Assembly: GCF_011765625.1 (NCBI RefSeq) | Contig: NZ_CP050313.1 | Location: 368,501-432,500 of the forward strand | Length of the DNA stretch: 64,000 nucleotides | From: Shewanella aestuarii | GTDB lineage: Bacteria > Pseudomonadota > Gammaproteobacteria > Enterobacterales > Shewanellaceae | Direction of reading: 5' to 3' | In this document: piece by piece, positions 3,501 to 41,250 of the stretch | How the letters are laid out: every line of letters starts with the position of its first letter | How positions within the stretch are numbered: the stretch's first letter is position 1 | The notes under the pieces: generated by a model | Seen by the model: the letters and a program-made list of their open reading frames with translations, nothing else | The model's database searches: none | Told to the model about the DNA's origin: nothing | Position numbers and translations under genes: made by a program

Positions 3501-4614
3501 TTGGCGTGAGCAAGGTTTAAAAGTAGTTGCAGATAAGCTGTATTTATCATTTGAACCCAAAAAGCCTAACGAAACTCAGTTTTCTCCAGCTGAAATCTTG
3601 CAAGGATTGCCGCCACTCGCGGTTGATGTTGATGATTTTAAATTCTATGGCAAGTCCTTAGGTCATTTGCAAATGCAAGCCAATCCAACGGATAAAGGCT
3701 ATCGATTTCAAACGGTTTCATTAACTCATCCAAACAGCAATATGAGTTTACAAGCTAACGGGACTTGGTTGACAGAGCAAGACGGTATGCAAACTCAGTT
3801 TGATATCAAGTTACACGCTGATAAGTTTAATGAGTTGTCGGATGTTTTAGGTATTAACCCTGGTTTACAAGATGCGCCTTTGGATTTAACTGGGCAAATA
3901 TCCTGGCAAAATAGCCCATATAATTTTTCATTAGAAACCCTTGACGGTGATTTGAAATTTGATTTTGGTAAGGGGCATTTATCCGAAATTAGTGACAAAG
4001 GAGCAAGACTGTTTTCACTGTTTAGTCTTGATTCTATTGTTCGTAAGCTGTCTTTTGATTTTTCAGACGTATTTGGTAAAGGGCTTTATTTTAATAGTTT
4101 CAAGGGTAGTTTAGTTATTGATAACGGCGTGGTGAAAACCACAGACACTGAAATGGACGCCCTTGCGGGTAGCATGAAAGTAAGAGGTTATACTGATCTT
4201 ACTACCCAAAGTCTCAATTACGATATTCGTTTTTTGCCGCAATTGGCCTCCAGTGTACCTACTGTGGTGCTACTAAGTACCAGTGCATGGACATTAGGCA
4301 TTGGCGCATTTGCCTTAACCAAAGTGCTTGAGCCTGTCATTGAAGTGATTTCAGAAATTCGTTTTCGACTTACTGGCACTATGGCTAATCCGCAAATGGA
4401 AGAGCTAGAGCGTAAGAGTAAAGAAATAGAAATACCGGAATCCATTTTACGTGAAAATGGTATTGAACCTTTGCCTAAAGAAGGATTACCGACAGAACCG
4501 TCAGCGCACGAAGAACCGTTAGTGGAAAAGAAGCCTTCAGTAGCTCCTCAGCCGACAATTCCAACGTCAGTTTCTGCCGATAGCAGCACAACTAATGTTG
4601 AATCACCAAACTAA
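547..4614 (+). CDS. yhdP: YhdP-family AsmA-like inter-membrane lipid transport protein
   Basis: A 1355-residue protein starting at a GTG that overlaps the rng stop. An N-terminal membrane anchor (about residues 10-33) precedes a long periplasmic beta-rich body of DUF3971/AsmA-like type; the conserved C-terminal AsmA_2 region lies around residues 1150-1300. The tail is Pro/Glu-rich low complexity. In E. coli, YhdP, with TamB and YdbH, moves phospholipids from inner to outer membrane; that role is inferred here from family and length (E. coli YhdP is ~1266 aa). The rng-yhdP-nitrilase-tldD order is conserved in many gammaproteobacteria and supports the call. No frame break is visible across 4 kb. 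Confidence 0.92.
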   Translation: MSGQRLATLGRIIWQILAILLVLFALGVSLIRGLLPHVPEVRQELLSYVQQNYGVKLQIGSLSAKWQAYGPALTVENLVLPVQDNLPMTLISKQVSIKLDFWQSLRNLSLQIEKVSFDKVDIAIHFDKFPDGSSTSNQPQSSDWLYALLLEQLEHFEINDVTIQLLSTEYDFSPIYIQTLNWLNQDNLHRAQGLLYIDNDASENESLSLRIALEGNGYQPESIAGQIYLNAAALDIGEWASRRTNPMINQDQIDFEGVVNFDAWLTFANRNIQDGLLQFKPSWLQWADSPPVTGQPSVISPIDTAKASTSFQRFEIRSGALTWQDIANGWHIQSHELVIESNQQQLPELDVSFGYQNEQLFGRMNLINAQMLQPLLPLIPNLGRKQVQLWHDINLQGDIGPLQVYKASHKPWQARVEVSQFQWRPIQHVPGLKPIDMQLAWNGQQAILTLPAQEYHIDFAGGFKAPLQLSGEGMQLQYDVADRQLMAPHIAFANSDIHLQAGLNLRFVPDTHMALAANLSIQDVANVRDYFPLMAMSPNLVDYLEAGLQAGRIDDAKVVWNGLFKRYPYVESDGVFQADFIISEGKFQFQPDWPAVTNLDLHALFENKLMDLTILSGKLGQVAVDGAKVVIPELGAKSLLKVEADLTTDAKYAVQVINVSPLKDSVGETLAVVNISKTINTQLDLAIPLYEGDKPLSKGTVRFNQNPVYITKPGVQLNQVSGEISFINNLVSGQDLTAKLFKQPLSFSFATTNRSGQLALDVDFEGRWDIDKFPASFTTPLSDYYQGQFDWTGELMMMFGDQGYSLRAQAESELQGVSLTLPLPYTKQAKDKKRLTAELIGDNKASSLSVKLADQAEFWAGFSQDSDQLFEFYELMLGRHFKLGDQLTKQGGQIYIDFEKAHLADWQPIINRFTAKAAAEISADHAETENRLFPDLAKINAKIAEFELLGQRFNKLNLSATPQEHVWRFDVTSEQFDGRVDFYPSWREQGLKVVADKLYLSFEPKKPNETQFSPAEILQGLPPLAVDVDDFKFYGKSLGHLQMQANPTDKGYRFQTVSLTHPNSNMSLQANGTWLTEQDGMQTQFDIKLHADKFNELSDVLGINPGLQDAPLDLTGQISWQNSPYNFSLETLDGDLKFDFGKGHLSEISDKGARLFSLFSLDSIVRKLSFDFSDVFGKGLYFNSFKGSLVIDNGVVKTTDTEMDALAGSMKVRGYTDLTTQSLNYDIRFLPQLASSVPTVVLLSTSAWTLGIGAFALTKVLEPVIEVISEIRFRLTGTMANPQMEELERKSKEIEIPESILRENGIEPLPKEGLPTEPSAHEEPLVEKKPSVAPQPTIPTSVSADSSTTNVESPN

Positions 4615-4650
4615 TCTGGTTATCACACACGTAAGTTAATAGGATGAAGC

Positions 4651-5505
4651 ATGCAAATCAGTTTATTACAGTGCCAAAGTAGTCGTGATGTTCAGGCCAA
4701 TTTGCAATTTATCAGTAGCCAACTTAGTGAATTACCCCGTCAATCAAATCAACCACAACTTGTGGTTCTCCCTGAATGCTGTTTGCTTTTTGGCGGGCAT
4801 GAATCACAGCAACTGCAATTTGCGGGTACAGATGATGATGGCGAGTTAAAGCAGGCACTCGCAGCTTTGGCTAAACAACATCAAGTGTATATGGTCGCCG
4901 GCACCATCCCAATGCGTGCAGATGATCAACGGGTTTACAGCCGCAGTTACTTATTTGATGATCAAGGTGAAACTTTAGGCTCATACGACAAGCTGCATCT
5001 GTTTGATGTTGATGTTGCCGATGGCACTAAAACTTACCGAGAAAGTGACACCTTTCATCCTGGTTCACGTATTACCGTTATCGATACCCCATTTGGTAAA
5101 GTAGGCTTAGCCATTTGTTACGACATTCGTTTTGCCGATTTATTTCGTGCGATACGCTTAGCGGGAGCTGATATTATCGCCCTGCCTTCGGCCTTTACTA
5201 AAGTGACCGGTGAAGCGCATTGGCAAGTGTTATTGCAAGCGCGAGCCATTGAAACCCAGTGCTATATGTTAGGAGCAGGCCAGTGGGGGCAGCATAATCA
5301 AGGTAGCCGAGAAACATGGGGCCACAGCATGATAGTTGACCCTTGGGGTAAGATTGTTGCTCAACTTGATGAGGGGTTAGGTTGGGTGCAAGCGGAAATA
5401 GATGTGGCCCAAATTGTAAAAATTCGCCAACAAATGCCCGTGTTAGGGCATAATCGTTTTATAGCCCCCGTACTGGCCGATACAAACACTCGCCAGACGG
5501 ACTAA
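4651..5505 (+). CDS. Carbon-nitrogen hydrolase (nitrilase superfamily), probable deaminated-glutathione amidase
   Basis: A 284-residue nitrilase-fold amidase. The catalytic Glu-Lys-Cys triad is visible: E42 in VVLPECC, K114 in SYDKLHLFDV, and C156 in GLAICYDIRFADLF. Length and the YDKLHLFDVDV block resemble the Nit1/YbeM branch, which removes deaminated glutathione as metabolite repair; this substrate is inference, since other omega-amidases look alike. It lies 36 bases after yhdP and 24 bases before tldD, in the same operon. ATG start preceded by AGGATGAAGC as a ribosome site. Cytoplasmic; no signal peptide. Confidence 0.88.
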   Translation: MQISLLQCQSSRDVQANLQFISSQLSELPRQSNQPQLVVLPECCLLFGGHESQQLQFAGTDDDGELKQALAALAKQHQVYMVAGTIPMRADDQRVYSRSYLFDDQGETLGSYDKLHLFDVDVADGTKTYRESDTFHPGSRITVIDTPFGKVGLAICYDIRFADLFRAIRLAGADIIALPSAFTKVTGEAHWQVLLQARAIETQCYMLGAGQWGQHNQGSRETWGHSMIVDPWGKIVAQLDEGLGWVQAEIDVAQIVKIRQQMPVLGHNRFIAPVLADTNTRQTD

Positions 5506-34726: not shown

Positions 34727-34833
34727 TGTTTGCCGTCATTATGGCGATGTACTGTAAGCGTCTGCCCAAAGGCACATACCGCTTACTATGCTGTTGATTT
34801 ATTTTGTTCCCATGTTTTATTGGGAGATACATA

Positions 34834-35160
34834 ATGAAAACCTTTCGTAATAAACAGCAGTGGCAAGAGCTCGTTCTTGCGCAGCAGCAAAGCGGCTTAA
34901 ATATCAGTGCTTATTGCCGCAAACATAAATTATCCACATCGAGCTTTTATGCCCACAAAAAGCGCTTGGCATCAACTGAGGGCGCTTTCGTCTGCGCCCA
35001 AATCTCACAACATAAAGTCATTGAGCATCAAGTGACTCAACTCGAACTCGCGCCGCCAAACGTTGCTATCACATTAGAACTCGCTCATGCCAAATTGCAC
35101 TTGCCTCACTCAGTCTCGCCGAGTTTTCTTGCGCAATTATTGCGAGAGCTTGCGCCATGA
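34834..35160 (+). CDS. tnpA: IS66 accessory protein TnpA
   Basis: A 108-residue IS66 Orf1-type protein with a small helix-turn-helix (LVLAQQQSGLNISAYCRKHKL then STSSFYAHKKRL). Required with TnpB for IS66 transposition by an unclear role. I chose ATG 34834, behind GGGAGATAC, rather than the in-frame ATG at 34804. It overlaps tnpB by four bases (ATGA), the normal coupling in these elements. Confidence 0.88.
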   Translation: MKTFRNKQQWQELVLAQQQSGLNISAYCRKHKLSTSSFYAHKKRLASTEGAFVCAQISQHKVIEHQVTQLELAPPNVAITLELAHAKLHLPHSVSPSFLAQLLRELAP

Positions 35161-35504
35161 AGATGTTTATCGACCCACCTGCCATTTATTTACATCGTGA
35201 TGCCGTTGATTTTCGTAAATCCATTGATGGCCTTGTGGCGATTGTTGAACAAGAATTCGCCCATGATGCTTATACTGGCGCACTATTCGTGTTTTGTAAT
35301 AAGGCTAAAAATAAACTCAAATTGCTGTATTGGGATAAAACGGGATTTGCCCTGTGGTATAAGCGCTTGGAGAAGCAAAGATTTAAATGGCCCAGTAAAG
35401 TTGACCGCCAAGCCTACAGCTTAACCGAGCAGCAGCTTTCATGGTTGTTATCAGGCTTTGATGTGATTGGGCATCAATCACTTAACTATCAATCTTTAGC
35501 TTAA
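35157..35504 (+). CDS. tnpB: IS66 accessory protein TnpB
   Basis: A 115-residue IS66 Orf2 protein: VDFRKSIDGLVAIVEQEF, GALFVFCNKAKNKLKLLYWDKTGFALWYKRLEK and the C-terminal LSWLLSGFD are the conserved blocks of the family. Starts inside the tnpA stop. Intact. The tnpC gene starts 111 bases further on. Confidence 0.95.
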   Translation: MKMFIDPPAIYLHRDAVDFRKSIDGLVAIVEQEFAHDAYTGALFVFCNKAKNKLKLLYWDKTGFALWYKRLEKQRFKWPSKVDRQAYSLTEQQLSWLLSGFDVIGHQSLNYQSLA

Positions 35505-35615
35505 ATGAGACAAATAAGGGCGATCGTTTTGCAGTGAAGGATCGTTGACACTACCCCTGACATGGATTAATGCTTAACCCCTTATTTGGCTTGCTATTTC
35601 TGATACACTGCGGGC

Positions 35616-37171
35616 ATGAAAACCTTGCCCCATGAATTACCTGACAACCCAGCACAACTCAAGCAAATGCTGCTTGAGTTGCAGCAAACGTTGGCCGAAA
35701 AAGATGCCCTGATTGCCGAGCAAAGTGCACAAATTCATGACTTACTAGTCCAATACAACGCTAAGCTCGCCAGAGAATTTGCTAAAAAATCAGAGAAACT
35801 GCCTGGCGCGGGGAAGTCTTTAATGAAGCAGAAGCTGAATTAGGTACAGAACAAGTCGATACCCTTGATGCGCAAGATAAAGCGCTACTTACTGAGCTAC
35901 CGACGCTTGATAAATCATTAGAGCAACCCAAGCGAAAGCCATTGCCAGTTGAACTTCCTCGTGAAGAGGTCGTTGTTGATATTGATGAAGCCGACAAATA
36001 CTGTGATTGTTGCCAAGGGGCGCTGCATCAAATGGGGCAAAGTTGTAGCGAGACGCTGGAATTTGTCCCCGCGCACATCAAGGTAATAAAAACCATTCGA
36101 CCGAAATATGCTTGTCGTCAATGTGAGCAGCAAGGTGTTAAGGTCGCGATAAAAACTGCGCCCATGCCTGCAACGCCTATCCCAAAAAGCATGGCAACGC
36201 CAAGTTTGCTTAGTCATATCATCACCTGCAAATATCAGTTTGGCTTGCCTTTATATCGCCAAGAAACCCTATTTTCTGATATTGGTGTTATGCTCAATCG
36301 CAAGACCATGTCGAGTTGGATGATACGCTGTGCCGATTTACTTGAGCCTTTATATCAACGCCTGAAAGTCAGTTTACTAGCGCAAGACATTATCCATGCG
36401 GATGAAACCCCGCTTAAGGTATTAAAAGCCGATAAACCGACTAGCTACATGTGGTTATATTGCTGTGGTGATGATGCTCCCAAGGGCAACACTAACATAG
36501 TACTCTATGATTATCACAACAGCCGTGCAGGCCAATGTGCCGTTGACTTTTTAGCAGGGTTTTCCGGTTATTTACAAGTGGATGGCTATCAAGCCTACGC
36601 CCAAACCGATGCGACCTTGGTAGCTTGTTTGGCGCATATTCGTCGTAAATTTATCGAAGCTAAAGGGAATAACAAAAAAACAGGCAAAGCTGATGTAGCA
36701 TTAAACCTTATCGGTAAACTTTATGGCATAGAGCAACAGATTAAAGGTAAATCTGCTGATGATAAATATGCCATAAGGCAGCAAAAATCCAAGATTATCA
36801 TCGATGAACTTCATCAATGGCTATTACAGCATCAAGATAAAATCCCCCCGAAAATGGCATTAGGTAAAGCCATCATTTATGCGCTGAATCAATTTGAAAA
36901 GTTCAGGCGCTACTTAGATGATGGCCGATTAAGTATCGACAACAACCGCGCCGAACGGGCGATAAAACCCTTTGTGATAGGTCGCAAGGCATGGCTATTT
37001 TCAAATACACCGCATGGTGCACGTGCCAGCGCAATCCTTTACAGTCTCATCGAAACAGCGAAGGCCAACGACCTAGTCGTACATGAGTATATCGCTAATT
37101 GCCTGCAAGGCTTGGCGGATAACCCAAGTGACGTTGAGTCTTTACTACCGTGGAATATCAAGCAAAGGTAA
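35616..37171 (+). pseudogene. tnpC: IS66 transposase TnpC, frameshifted as written
   Basis: The N-terminal leucine-rich coiled coil (MLLELQQTLAEKDALIAEQ) runs in one frame to 35843; from about 35814 the protein continues in another frame to 37171. It has the zinc-binding CDCCQGAL...CRQCE region, DDE transposase core (DIIHADETPLKVL, LQVDGYQAYA, CLAHIRRKF) and the C-terminal NNRAERAIKPFVIGRKAWLF signature. Inserting one G in the G4 run at 35810-35813 restores LPGAGEVFNEAE and a ~518-residue transposase. So one base is missing, either in the genome or in the assembly. The first ATG at 35616 is the start. Confidence 0.9.
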
Positions 37172-37213
37172 ATGGCTAGGTGTATTTGCCTAGACGTGTA
37201 TGGACTCCTCCTC

Positions 37214-37454
37214 TTTTGCAAGTAATTTGTTCAATAACTTTAGGTATGATTGCCAACGTGTATCCGGTTTCTTAATGATGCTTTTCTGTTATTGCATCGA
37301 ACCTCTATGGGCTATTCGCACACTTGCTCCTTAACGCTTACACGAGCTTTAAAGCTCTACGTCTAGGTAAGGTTTTTCAAGTGTCGGTCTTACCTGTTAG
37401 CCATCTCACATCTTACTTTGCAACTGGGATGAACATTTTTACTTATAAACTCGT
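37214..37454 (-). ncRNA. Candidate bridge RNA (seekRNA) region of the IS1111-group element
   Basis: A 241-base non-coding stretch between the transposase stop and the element end; in the IS1111 group the guide RNA is reported to lie downstream of the transposase. On the RNA strand it holds CCTAGACG (complement of 37360-37367) and GTAAGCGT (complement of 37334-37341), separated by a palindromic hairpin GAGCTTTAAAGCTC (37344-37357). The first is identical to target bases left of the insertion (37189-37196); the second is complementary to ACGCTTAC, which spans the rejoined insertion point. This is the paired-guide layout of a target loop. GTTCATCCCA (complement of 37425-37434) could pair with the element end TGGGATGGAC with one wobble. 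RNA ends are not defined. Confidence 0.65.
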
Positions 37455-38492
37455 CTATGCGCTTGCTATTAATTCTGGGTGATAACCTTCACTCTTATTT
37501 ACCATCGCCCAAGCTGCTCGTGCCGTTTTGTTTGCTAGTGCAACAATAACTATATTCACATGCTTGTAAGCGCACAGCTTTGCTATCCATTTGCTCAGAT
37601 TGTCATCATGTCGATGAGCATGCCTGATGACAGAGCGGGCCCCATGAACCAATAGTTTTCTCAAGTAGCCATCGCCTCGTTTACTGATACCTAGCAATCT
37701 TGGCTTGCCGCCTGTACTATGTTGTCTCGGCGTGAGCCCAATAGAAGCTGCAAAATCTCGTCCTTTCCTGTAACCTTTAGCATCTCCTATTGCACAAGAT
37801 AAAGCACTAGCACATAAAACTCCCACTCCTCTCAACTCAAGTAGTGAACGTGCAACTGGGTCGTTTTTAACTTCTTGCTGAATTAGATTGTCGAGTTTAT
37901 CTACCCGCTCTTGAAGTCGCCGTAAGTCATCAAACAAATCTAATAGCAACGAACGAAATAGTGCTGACAAACCATTTTCGACATCTTCAAGCCAAAGAGG
38001 GATCGCTTCTCTCAGCTTATTGATACCTACTGGCGCAACCAATCCATATTCACTGACCAAACCACGTATTTGATTTGCTTTGGAGGATTTTTGCACCATC
38101 AGTTTATCCCTGATCCGATGCATAGACTGAATGTCTTGTTGCCGATTTGATTTTACACATACAAATCGCATGTTCGGGCGGCTCATGGCTTCGCAAATTG
38201 CCTCTGCGTCAATCGCATCATTCTTATTGCTCTTTACATAAGGCTTAACAAACTGAGCATGTATAATTTTGACTTTATAACCCCGTTTTTGTAACTCTCT
38301 TCCCCAATAGTGCGACGAACCACACGCTTCCATCGCAACTTCTGCACCTTGAGGCACTTTGTCTGTGATGGCATTCAGCCACTTGGTTCGAGAGTATTTA
38401 CCTTTCCACTGCCGTTCTCCAAATCTATCAACTGCGTGGACATGAAAAACAGACTTTGCAATATCAACACCGACTCTAGTGATCTGACTCAT
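37455..38492 (-). CDS. IS110/IS1111-group transposase (DEDD recombinase)
   Basis: A 345-residue transposase. The N-terminal RuvC-like DEDD domain shows VGVDIAKSVFHVHAVD, EVAMEACGSSHYWGREL and KNDAIDAEAI; the C-terminal Transposase_20 domain has ELRGVGVLCASALSCAIGD, ASIGLTPRQHSTGGKPRLLGISKRGDGYLRKLL. The catalytic serine in this class lies near GARSVI-type sequence after that block. I chose ATG 38492, behind a GGAGAAGCCC ribosome site, over the ATG at 38537. Intact, so this copy could be active. Confidence 0.93.
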   Translation of the reverse strand: MSQITRVGVDIAKSVFHVHAVDRFGERQWKGKYSRTKWLNAITDKVPQGAEVAMEACGSSHYWGRELQKRGYKVKIIHAQFVKPYVKSNKNDAIDAEAICEAMSRPNMRFVCVKSNRQQDIQSMHRIRDKLMVQKSSKANQIRGLVSEYGLVAPVGINKLREAIPLWLEDVENGLSALFRSLLLDLFDDLRRLQERVDKLDNLIQQEVKNDPVARSLLELRGVGVLCASALSCAIGDAKGYRKGRDFAASIGLTPRQHSTGGKPRLLGISKRGDGYLRKLLVHGARSVIRHAHRHDDNLSKWIAKLCAYKHVNIVIVALANKTARAAWAMVNKSEGYHPELIASA

Positions 38493-38642
38493 GGGCTTCT
38501 CCTGATTTGAATATTGGTAACTCATCATATTGACCAAAAAAAGGTCAACAATTCAAGTTGAGGAGGAGTCCATCCCATTGCTTACGATGTACTGGGGCAG
38601 AATCTAGTTTTTAGTTAAGTTAATTCTGACTAGTAACTATAT

Positions 38643-39293
38643 TTAGACATCTGCGTCATTTACATTTTTATGCCTGAATTTTAAGATATTTCTTTCTAAA
38701 AAAGACATATTTAATATTTTTAGTGCTGAAATAATATTTTTTAGTGCTTCTTGATGGCGTTCAATTAAATGACCATCATACTCTACTAAGAGGCTTGAAA
38801 GTTCACTTTCAATAGTTGAATTAGATTCACCTCTAATTTTTATTTGTAATGTTTGACGAGATTGAATCATAGCAGTTAACTGATTATTAATAGCGTCAAT
38901 ACTTGATAAATTACCCCATAAATATTCAACTTCAAATCTCGAAAGTTTACTGTTTGAAAAAATTAACTCAGCACCTGAACCTCTAAATCTAAATAAAGGA
39001 TTTATCGTAAATCGCCTTCTTTCATTCATCCCTTCTATTTCATTTTTCAGTATCCCTAAGTTACTCTCGCACATGAGTTTGTTGTTTTCTAAAGATGAAC
39101 GAATAACACTTCTTAGCTTGTTATCGATCTCTATTTTTCTTAACCATGATGAAATGAAATTAATAAGTAATGTCACTGCTCCAGCAGAAATTGCACCAAT
39201 TAATGCACCGGATAAGACAGGTATCATTTCGGGAGTATTCAGAAAGGATAGTGTTGAACTTGAAAGTTCTTTAAACTTAAAAAGTAGAGTCAA
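38643..39293 (-). CDS. Hypothetical membrane-anchored coiled-coil protein
   Basis: A 216-residue protein of unrecognised family. One strong hydrophobic helix near the N-terminus (VLSGALIGAISAGAVTLLINFI, about residues 26-50) is followed by a largely helical, charged cytoplasmic part that may form coiled coils. The coding sequence is noticeably AT-richer than the neighbouring core genes, which suggests acquisition with the surrounding mobile DNA. It lies 50 bases beyond the IS66 right target duplication, in an accessory block. An immunity or defence role is conceivable but not supported by any motif. Confidence 0.6.
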   Translation of the reverse strand: MTLLFKFKELSSSTLSFLNTPEMIPVLSGALIGAISAGAVTLLINFISSWLRKIEIDNKLRSVIRSSLENNKLMCESNLGILKNEIEGMNERRRFTINPLFRFRGSGAELIFSNSKLSRFEVEYLWGNLSSIDAINNQLTAMIQSRQTLQIKIRGESNSTIESELSSLLVEYDGHLIERHQEALKNIISALKILNMSFLERNILKFRHKNVNDADV

Positions 39294-39390
39294 TTTTTAG
39301 TCCATTAAAAAATAGCAAGTAAGATTTTTAGTCTAAACAACCATCTATACAAATGGCAAGTCGTGAAAAATGTGGCAGCGTAAACTTCAG

Positions 39391-39633
39391 TACTTCCTCA
39401 ATCAAACACTTAAACACAGCCATAATCTTGCTGTTCAGGGGCTTTGTGCTGACTGACGTTGGTATTTTTGCTGAAAGTCTTAAAAGGCTGTGGTTTAGAC
39501 TGATACCCAAGAGGTGAACCATGAGTATTTGCGAGACGACCGTTCATCCCATGGACGGGATGTTCGAGCCCTCATGGATGAGTTTACGGCCTGTCGGTGA
39601 GTGAATACCATGGTGAGCTGATACAAATCAATT
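39391..39633. repeat. ~245-bp direct repeat, copy 1
   Basis: From TACTTCCTCAATCAAACACT to ATACAAATCAATT, ~90% identical to 41370-41619 in the same orientation, by eye. Internal small dyads include CATCCCATGGACGGGATG and CTCATGGATGAG. It overlaps the last codons of the cold-shock/Excalibur gene. It encodes no conserved protein: a 64-codon minus-strand frame in this copy is not preserved in the other. Together the repeats bracket the CSD-Excalibur and NERD genes. Confidence 0.85.
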
Positions 39634-40218
39634 ACACAGCTGTCTTTCGCACGGAACACCATCACCATCTCCATCCATTTTGGTATTTGGGCAATTTCTA
39701 ATGTAAAAGGTAGCTTCTTCGCAAGAGCGCATCTGGCTACAGTGTGTTTTTCCTGCTTCGCAGCGAAATGATGGCGTGGTTATCGAGTTGATTGGGCTTG
39801 CTGTAGGTTGCCACTGCATGTTTTCAATATCTTCATTTGTCAGAACGGGCGTCTCATTGAGTTGCTGGTACTTTGAATAACCAAACACTGCGGTAACAAC
39901 CAGCGCAAGTGGGATAAGCTTTGAAAGAAATGAACGAGGCTGGCGGCTCTTATATGCTTGGTTGCTACTACTAGTACGAGTGGGTTTGGCACTTGCAACA
40001 ATAGCAACACCTTCAATACTGGCTTTGATGGCTTTCACTTTGCCGTCGGGTTGCTGCTCACGTAGAAATAGAATTTCATCACCGACTTTGGGTTTCCTTG
40101 CCATGTGTTTTAGTTCTGAAATATGAATAAACACATCCGTTTTATCACTGTTCATTGTGGGTTTGATAAATCCAAACCCTTTGTCATCGTTCCAGCGTAC
40201 AAGATTGCCTTTTTCCAT
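39628..40218 (-). CDS. Cold-shock domain protein with membrane helix and C-terminal Excalibur domain
   Basis: A 196-residue protein of three parts. Residues 1-~68 are a cold-shock (OB-fold) domain with the RNA-binding motifs KGFGFIKP and DVFIHISEL. A transmembrane helix (LSKLIPLALVVTAVFGYS, about 97-115) follows. The last ~45 residues are an Excalibur calcium-binding domain with cysteines CEAGKTHCSQM and the Asp-rich loop DGDGDGVPCE. The nucleic-acid-binding part would be cytoplasmic and the Excalibur part periplasmic. Similar CSD-TM-Excalibur or CSD-DUF1294 proteins occur in marine gammaproteobacteria; function unknown. It follows the NERD gene by 54 bases, probably one operon. Confidence 0.82.
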   Translation of the reverse strand: MEKGNLVRWNDDKGFGFIKPTMNSDKTDVFIHISELKHMARKPKVGDEILFLREQQPDGKVKAIKASIEGVAIVASAKPTRTSSSNQAYKSRQPRSFLSKLIPLALVVTAVFGYSKYQQLNETPVLTNEDIENMQWQPTASPINSITTPSFRCEAGKTHCSQMRSCEEATFYIRNCPNTKMDGDGDGVPCERQLCN

Positions 40219-40272: not shown

Positions 40273-41250
40273 CTAAATCAACTGACTTTCTACGCTGCAA
40301 TCTTGGCAGTGTAGGGTGTAAGTCTCTTTGCGCTTTTGTACTTTGGTATTTTTACTTTGGCACTGCGGGCAATTTTGTTTCATGGGCGTATTTTTGCTGC
40401 AGTGATTACACTTAATGTAGTAACCAAACTTACCGTACATTGGGGTGTAATTTGTTGATTCAACACAATTTTTGCAGCTTAGATTCGCTTGAGCTGTTGG
40501 TTGCGTCTCGGCTATAGGAACACTGTTGTTACTTGTTGTATTAGTTTGCGAATGCTGTATCGGCTCTGGCGCTTTGTTGACTTCTTCACTTATTTGGCGA
40601 TTGCCATCGATATGTTGACTGAGGATGAAGTCTCCTATTGAGTCGAGTTCTTGTTGGTTGAAGTAAGGTCTGGTGTCATATACATTAACTTTGCGTAAAA
40701 GCTTATTTCCTAGCTTCATTATTTTATGAAGCTTATCGACTAAAAACTCAGATTTTACCAACTTGTCGGATACCGCTTTCGGCATAGTGTTTCTATCAAT
40801 AACGGTATCGCTTGATACCACGCAGATATGATCCCAACAACGTCCACCGAATCCTTGTTTAATACCCAAGAATTTACCTAAAATTTCCTGTCTATGGTGG
40901 GCTAATAAGTTTTTAAGCAAGGCTTGCTGTAACTCAACTTGTTTAATGGGCGATGGCATGCCTGACCATTGGTTGTTATAGCTTCGAGTCCATTCACCTT
41001 GTTGATTCACTTTTATATGGCCTTTAATACTTTTTGATTCAAGTAACACAAAGCCATAGGGATAAACGATTAAATGATCGATTTGCGCCGTTTCATCATT
41101 GAAAGTGAATTTGAAATCATTGATCACCAGTATTTCAGGGTTGTCTTTAAATGCGCGACGTAAGAAGAAAGCCACGTTTTGCTCTTGTTTTTGACCTGCG
41201 GAGGCTTGCGGTGAAGTGGGGTTTTGCAGTGTTTTGCCTTTAAGAATCAT
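40273..41250 (-). CDS. NERD-domain (nuclease-related) protein with C-terminal zinc ribbons
   Basis: A 325-residue protein. Residues ~20-140 form a NERD domain, a restriction-endonuclease-like fold: GQKQEQNVAFFLRRAF, then DETAQIDHLIVYPYGFVLLESKSIKG, where the D...ESK arrangement matches the PD-(D/E)XK catalytic pattern. The C-terminal ~75 residues hold CXXC pairs (CKNC, CNHC, CPQC, CQDC), probably two zinc ribbons. This suggests a DNA- or RNA-directed nuclease, but the family's function is largely uncharacterised. Upstream of the CSD-Excalibur gene in the repeat-bounded unit. Confidence 0.85.
   Translation of the reverse strand: MILKGKTLQNPTSPQASAGQKQEQNVAFFLRRAFKDNPEILVINDFKFTFNDETAQIDHLIVYPYGFVLLESKSIKGHIKVNQQGEWTRSYNNQWSGMPSPIKQVELQQALLKNLLAHHRQEILGKFLGIKQGFGGRCWDHICVVSSDTVIDRNTMPKAVSDKLVKSEFLVDKLHKIMKLGNKLLRKVNVYDTRPYFNQQELDSIGDFILSQHIDGNRQISEEVNKAPEPIQHSQTNTTSNNSVPIAETQPTAQANLSCKNCVESTNYTPMYGKFGYYIKCNHCSKNTPMKQNCPQCQSKNTKVQKRKETYTLHCQDCSVESQLI

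Follow-up and report, generated by a model that had tools for sequence, protein, structure and literature searches.

The window analysed here, a stretch of 64,000 nucleotides from Shewanella aestuarii, contains an IS66 element whose right terminal repeat is split by a second insertion sequence, and the question raised by this locus is how the latter chose that precise base. In the original prediction, an IS1111-group element was proposed to carry, in a 241-base non-coding region after its transposase gene, guide-like segments matching the site where it is inserted. The letters and positions given in that prediction were correct, the element proper being 1384 bp long, and so was the count of 241 bases, which runs from the transposase stop to the right subterminal repeat; the distance to the end of the element is 258 nt. 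The features of the locus are collected in Table 1.

Table 1. Positions in the window of the features of the IS1111-group element, its putative RNA and the IS66 target.
Feature	Position	Strand	Basis
IS66 8-bp target duplication, GATGTACT	left 34746..34753, right 38586-38593	+	sequence
IS66 body (TnpA, TnpB, TnpC), right terminal repeat interrupted	34754..37196	+	NCBIfam IS66 models; other genome copies
Outer 5 bp of IS66 right end, CTTAC, severed by insertion	38581..38585	+	sequence; intact IS66 copies
IS1111-group insertion sequence, complete	37197..38580	-	ends from rejoined IS66 target, 14-bp subterminal repeats, 7/3-bp extensions
Left-end 7-bp extension, CAATGGG (minus-strand reading)	38574..38580	-	sequence; same letters in 63/71 elements
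Left subterminal inverted repeat, 14 bp	38560..38573	-	sequence
DEDD transposase/recombinase ORF, 360 aa from TTG	37455..38537	-	Pfam PF01548 + PF02371
Downstream non-coding region, putative seekRNA/bridge RNA source	37197..37454	-	position 3' of transposase gene; covarying structure kept in 45 elements
Target-loop outer stem, 5' arm	37378..37385	-	window RNA fold; alignment columns 45-51
Target guide 1 (T), CCTAGACG, complementary to IS66 side of target	37360..37367	-	8/8 to own target; homologue tracking
Target-loop inner hairpin, GAGCTTTAAAGCTC	37344..37357	-	window RNA fold; alignment covariation
Target guide 2 (B), GTAAGCGT, identical to target's other side plus CGT	37334..37341	-	homologue tracking
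Target-loop outer stem, 3' arm	37319..37326	-	window RNA fold; alignment columns 106-112
Left donor guide, CCCAT, complementary to left end ATGGG	37307..37311	-	tracking, 68/71 elements
Right donor guide, ATACAC (right end ATACA + left-end C)	37258..37263	-	68/71 elements
Right subterminal inverted repeat, 14 bp, perfect	37200..37213	-	sequence
Right-end 3-bp extension, ACA (minus strand)	37197..37199	-	sequence

The DEDD transposase carried both domains found in the IS1111 group (PF01548 and PF02371) and matched the NCBIfam model of IS110 family RNA-guided transposases, NF033542, with 315 bits against a cut-off of 140. The subterminal inverted repeats, usually of 11-13 bp in the group, were of 14 bp and perfect, and beyond them lay extensions of 7 bp on the left and 3 bp on the right, an arrangement of ends described in PMC11187229. 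The long non-coding region was located downstream of the gene, and insertion had occurred without target duplication, the flanks rejoining to the intact IS66 end seen in two other copies (L005 and L006). The true start of the transposase is probably 15 codons further in than the TTG, because the database entry P0001, 100% identical to it, has 345 aa instead of 360. The database entries P0002-P0004 are 91-93% identical transposases. A search of positions 36500-39500 with Rfam gave nothing above threshold, the sole match being isrF at 14.5 bits (cut-off 40), inside the transposase gene. When 37197-37230 is joined to 38550-38580, as in a circle, the junction would read by eye TTGCAA-17 bp-CACAAT, a possible promoter; a promoter at the circle junction of ISEc11 is described in PMC11187229.

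Two segments of the RNA strand, T and B, flank the inner hairpin and match both strands of the target, the complement of the top strand coming first, which is the order reported for the target matches of IS1111 seekRNAs in PMC11187229. Both 8-nt matches of the original prediction are real and lie at the places where they had been put. The bases immediately left of the element (37189-37196) read CCTAGACG and those to its right (38581-38585) read CTTAC. In order to estimate chance, a joint exact match of at least 16 letters was counted, with T before B and a gap of 5-60 between them. With overlapping 24-mers of the window as pseudo-targets, the element being excluded, 428 of 124,966 attained it (0.34%); after dinucleotide shuffling of the region, 33 of 50,000 sequences did (0.07%). 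Pseudo-targets drawn also from inside the element, a set superseded by the element-free one, had reached 16 in 785 of 200,000 cases. The guide match in this single sequence, at about 0.0007-0.003 by chance, is only moderately unlikely and hence suggestive; such certainty as the guides have comes from comparison with homologous sequences and not from this match.

Homologues were obtained in one scan of genome contigs, and the best 80 of 457 loci (L040-L119; transposases 53-89% identical) were compared with the window, leaving aside the loci of the genus (L011-L039) and two distant relatives from viral contigs. Searches in the family and the order found no nearer complete copy of the element. 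Ten of the resulting 81 elements had no recognisable second end and five had too little flank, which left 66 for the target guides; the donor guides were counted in the 71 with both ends recognisable. Across the 66 elements (the window plus those retained from the best 80 of 457 loci), the guide columns agreed with their own target at a mean of 12.70 of 15 positions, against 9.29 (SD 0.16) when the targets were shuffled. None of 10,000 shuffles reached the observed match, either for both guides together or for T and B alone, and the same was true (0 of 10,000) of the 56 distinct guide pairs with G:U pairs allowed. In the 18 nearest elements the mean was 12.94 against 8.79 for shuffled targets, and the own target was the best or tied in 17 of them. 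The figure fell to 36 of 66 overall, because many elements of a sister clade share one target type, and was 19 of 48 outside the nearest 18. In that clade (L063-L118, from Pseudomonas, Dyella, Duganella and others), many elements shared a short target like CCAAAAG^CGGACGTT (^ marks the junction).

The comparison of insertion sites that had been proposed as a check thus showed a loop that tracks its target overall, with exceptions, and the prediction is upheld for the target loop, for both of its guides and the order in which they come, and for IS66 as the target. The proposal that the overlapping bases ACG could include the core also fits, as a candidate: in the transposase orientation, the first target base right of the junction was C in 62 and the next one G in 57 of the same 66 elements (the window and the best 80 of 457 loci, filtered), and the left end of the element itself started with C in 70 of 71 drawn from the same set. 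Regarding the exceptions, T matched at five or fewer of 8 positions in 12 of the 66 elements and B at five or fewer of 7 in 13; L046 and L097 were weak on both guides, and L053, L054 and L060 matched only 4 of the 7 positions of B. A 66% identical relative on the Citrobacter freundii IncC plasmid pKHM-1 (L120, match 4001-5405) was off its guides, which predict GTAAG^CGTAACA, the actual site being CATACC^CACATG by eye. In one genome (G854) three insertions (L129, L131 and L132) were at CTTACC^CGCGCTAC, and by eye their guides suit this site. Another (G241) held five identical copies (L124-L128), all at GTAAG^CG, with the right half fully fitting in one only, as judged by eye; as the right halves differ from copy to copy, matching seems to be required more strictly on the B side than on the T side. 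The five copies were also considered as insertions into IS66 ends and this was rejected, since the IS66 nearby lies about 0.7 kb away from one copy, and the two other copies of that IS66 had no such end in the stretches examined.

The RNA itself was predicted to be structured. Folded alone, the window RNA scored z = -2.1, that is, 2.1 SD better than its shuffles. When the regions of 45 homologous IS1111 elements were aligned and folded together, the consensus contained 34 pairs, and in 15 of these both sides had changed, counts which lean towards this structure since it was predicted from the same rows. Covariation was strongest in the outer stem of the target loop, where columns 45-51 pair with 106-112 and six of seven pairs changed on both sides, and in a stem of the second loop, where column 131 pairs with 166 (U-A in 23 and C-G in 22). 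A conserved, covarying fold is therefore present at this position in the 45 elements, as the original prediction had supposed.

The second loop bears on the donor guides, about which that prediction had been less certain. ATACAC stood, and GTTCATCCCA did not, being unconserved in the homologues; its place is taken by CCCAT. In 68 of the 71 elements (window plus best 80 of 457 loci; the misses were L043, L114 and L115) the complement of bases 3-7 of the left end was present in the left guide, and variants of the left end were followed by the guide in three CAATGAG/CTCAT and three CAATGGT/ACCAT cases. The right guide, likewise in 68 of 71, was the same as the bases of the right end followed by C (57 ATATAC and 11 ATACAC; misses L046, L095 and L097), the end forms ATA and ACA tracking ATATAC and ATACAC, respectively. 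A donor loop complementary to the joined ends, as in bridge RNAs, is thus indicated by tracking among homologues, with few independent changes. In a quick tree of 64 transposases (80 elements less 15 near-copies removed by hand and one skipped for stops; the character states of L124 were set by hand), the switch of the right end took three changes and the switch of the RNA three, and two independent pairs on well-supported branches agreed, too few for a sign test to reach 0.05.

These guides are short, 5-6 nt, and the element could instead use a target loop only, as the short seekRNA of ISEc11 does, the donor-like matches then reflecting the RNA's own fold. An 82-nt seekRNA was enough for ISEc11 transposition according to PMC11187229, and in the consensus fold the CCAT of the left guide has a pairing partner, GATGG, within the RNA itself, both changing together, so that part of the left-guide signal could come from this internal pairing. 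We nevertheless consider a target loop without donor guides unlikely, because the DNA ends change together with the RNA on both sides, in the left-end and the right-end variants alike, and a pairing confined to the RNA would give no reason for such a link to the ends.

The host genome provided occupied and empty sites of the same kind. It contained four full IS66 copies like that of the window, plus one short 71% match. The right end was intact and empty in two of them (L005 and L006) and the rejoined flanks of the window element restore exactly this end, so the claim that the element splits an IS66 terminal repeat was borne out. The other two right ends, those of the window and L007, held the IS1111 element, which was found only these two times in the genome. 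In L007 (G000:C1 near 2036453) the element was shortened to 629 bp by the lack of about 755 bp of its right side, and it joined the IS66 end at the same base; since its right end was lost, this junction was judged from the other side. The L007 joint shares ACG, the bases common to both target guides, and the missing part may have been lost by deletion at a microhomology or by mis-recombination that was guided. The exact 13-bp target, GTAAGCGTCTAGG, was intact in the genome only at the two empty IS66 right ends. Near-matches comprised 7 sites with one mismatch and 51 with two, one of the latter being the element's own guide; in total the target had 60 sites and the reversed pattern used as control 51. 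IS66 ends commonly begin with GTAA, and the left end of this IS66 differed from the right-end target at three bases by eye. The L005 copy had no matching 8-bp duplication, which suggests a rearrangement.

Two separate insertions are the simplest reading of the occupied copies and are favoured by comparison of their sequences, because the IS66 bodies (21 differences in about 2444 columns, partly clustered) and the 8-bp duplications differ, whereas the 629 bp of the IS1111 element present in both show no difference. A single insertion, in which an IS66 already carrying the element in its end moved or was copied to a second locus, would account for the identical junction in both; it seems improbable in view of duplications that differ outside the same 5-bp CTTAC and of 21 differences in the IS66 body against 0 of 629 in the IS1111 part, and a split end should, besides, block the movement of IS66.

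Two relatives were located exactly at the ends of other IS66 elements, whose TnpC proteins were 55% (L050) and 43% (L058) identical to that of the window over the aligned parts; the nearest IS66 protein match lay 75 bp and 52 bp away, respectively. Their T guides, TGTTACG in L050 and TTAGGCGCT in L058, each fit their own IS66 end. For the IS66 at L050 no far end was found, and the L058 IS66 had two ends without a matching duplication. L041, with an 89% identical transposase, had GTAAG on its left and no recognised right end, and the B guide GTAAGCG was common in the nearest clade. L050, from Idiomarina loihiensis, and L052, from I. zobellii, have non-coding regions that differ at 10 of 285 columns, and two of these columns fall within the 8-nt T guide. 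At the first of these each guide fits its own target; at the second the L052 guide fits and the L050 guide does not; a third difference between the targets was not followed by the guide and would be a G:U pair in L052. Recognition of IS66 ends by the protein alone or by DNA structure, with the RNA matches as by-products, agrees with the GTAAGCG start of several IS66 ends seen and with the chance rate of 0.07-0.34% for the single-sequence match, but is very hard to reconcile with guide columns that track targets across 66 elements and with L050 and L052, which are closely placed on the tree and have near-identical non-coding regions, different targets and guides altered to match.

We considered whether the lineage as a whole had specialised on IS66 and rejected the idea; the majority of its members lie outside IS66. 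In the loci queried with IS66 proteins, IS66 genes were at the target only in the window, L050 and L058. None of the 10 open reading frame products scanned in the neighbourhoods of L043, L044, L045, L052 and L055 was an IS66 protein (three had no family and one had a match under the cut-off), and the lineage as a whole is therefore not tied to IS66. The reverse nesting was observed at L057, where the right end of an IS1111 element contains an IS66 end that begins GTAAGCGCCC (3634-4330).

The ends, the target, the tracking of target and donor guides, the covarying fold, and the two occupied and two empty sites were all established by comparison of sequences, and together they make RNA-guided insertion of this IS1111 element into the IS66 end, with both target and donor guides, a very probable explanation. 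Downstream of the gene for its DEDD recombinase, the element would encode a structured RNA that belongs with the seekRNAs and bridge RNAs. The two guides of the target loop (37334-37367) would pair with opposite strands of GTAAG^CGTCTAGG, the resident IS66 right end, and the short guides CCCAT and ATACAC of the second loop with the joined ends of the element itself. Using both loops, the recombinase may then insert the circular element without target duplication, in one orientation, at a single base of the IS66 end. Transcription and processing of the RNA, its binding by the protein, circle formation and strand pairing would be expected by analogy with related systems, and splitting of the end would presumably disable the IS66 copy. 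As a tentative possibility, the element may be an RNA-programmed parasite of IS66, its guides tuned to the inner part of the right and not the left IS66 end, which lodged at least twice in one genome, disabling copies, and whose relatives were re-tuned to other IS66 ends as the donor loop kept pace with their own ends.

The RNA-guided principle is already known for this family, as PMC11187229 and PMC11208160 make clear. ISEc11, ISKpn4, ISPst6 and ISPa11 share with the window element, according to PMC11187229, the downstream non-coding region, the 7/3-bp extensions, the subterminal repeats, the top-strand complement before the bottom-strand match and the lack of target duplication; the element described here differs from them in having an IS66 terminal repeat as target, in evidence that is comparative only and in the added tracking of the donor loop. 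The same text describes natural reprogramming between the relatives ISEc11 and ISXne4, as seen among the homologues of the window element. In seekRNA-guided elements, the transposase is purified together with an essential RNA (about 70-100 and 145-170 nt), and a circular intermediate has abutted ends. The bridge RNAs of the IS621 type and those predicted for the IS1111 group likewise have target and donor guides in two loops, and donor nucleotides of many IS1111 RNAs were predicted from structures to lie in a multi-loop, according to PMC11208160. Compared with the IS621 type as described there, the window RNA lies downstream and not upstream of the gene, the guide order is reversed, the subterminal repeats are long, and the system is recognised from sequence comparison in place of biochemistry. 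IS4321 and IS5075, which we know from the title of a reference in PMC11208160, are IS1111-group elements that also lodge in a transposon terminal repeat; the host transposon there is of the Tn21 family instead of IS66, and the likeness seen here is one of insertion habit.

A search of titles and openings of abstracts, outside ISfinder and for the most part outside subscription papers, found no report of an IS1111-group element in an IS66 end. The locus offers a further, independent example from nature of how RNA guides target choice in the IS1111 group; a single genome supplies both occupied and empty sites, and IS66 joins the transposon families whose ends are hit by elements of this group. 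According to PMC11187229, the domain that binds the element ends is not known; the co-variation of donor guides and element ends allows a direct test of whether it is through the RNA that IS1111 elements recognise their own ends, and pairs such as L050 and L052 are ready-made reprogramming controls.

Beyond the element, positions 39628-40218 of the window encode a protein that combines a cold-shock domain with an Excalibur calcium-binding domain and is adjoined by a NERD-domain protein at 40273-41250.
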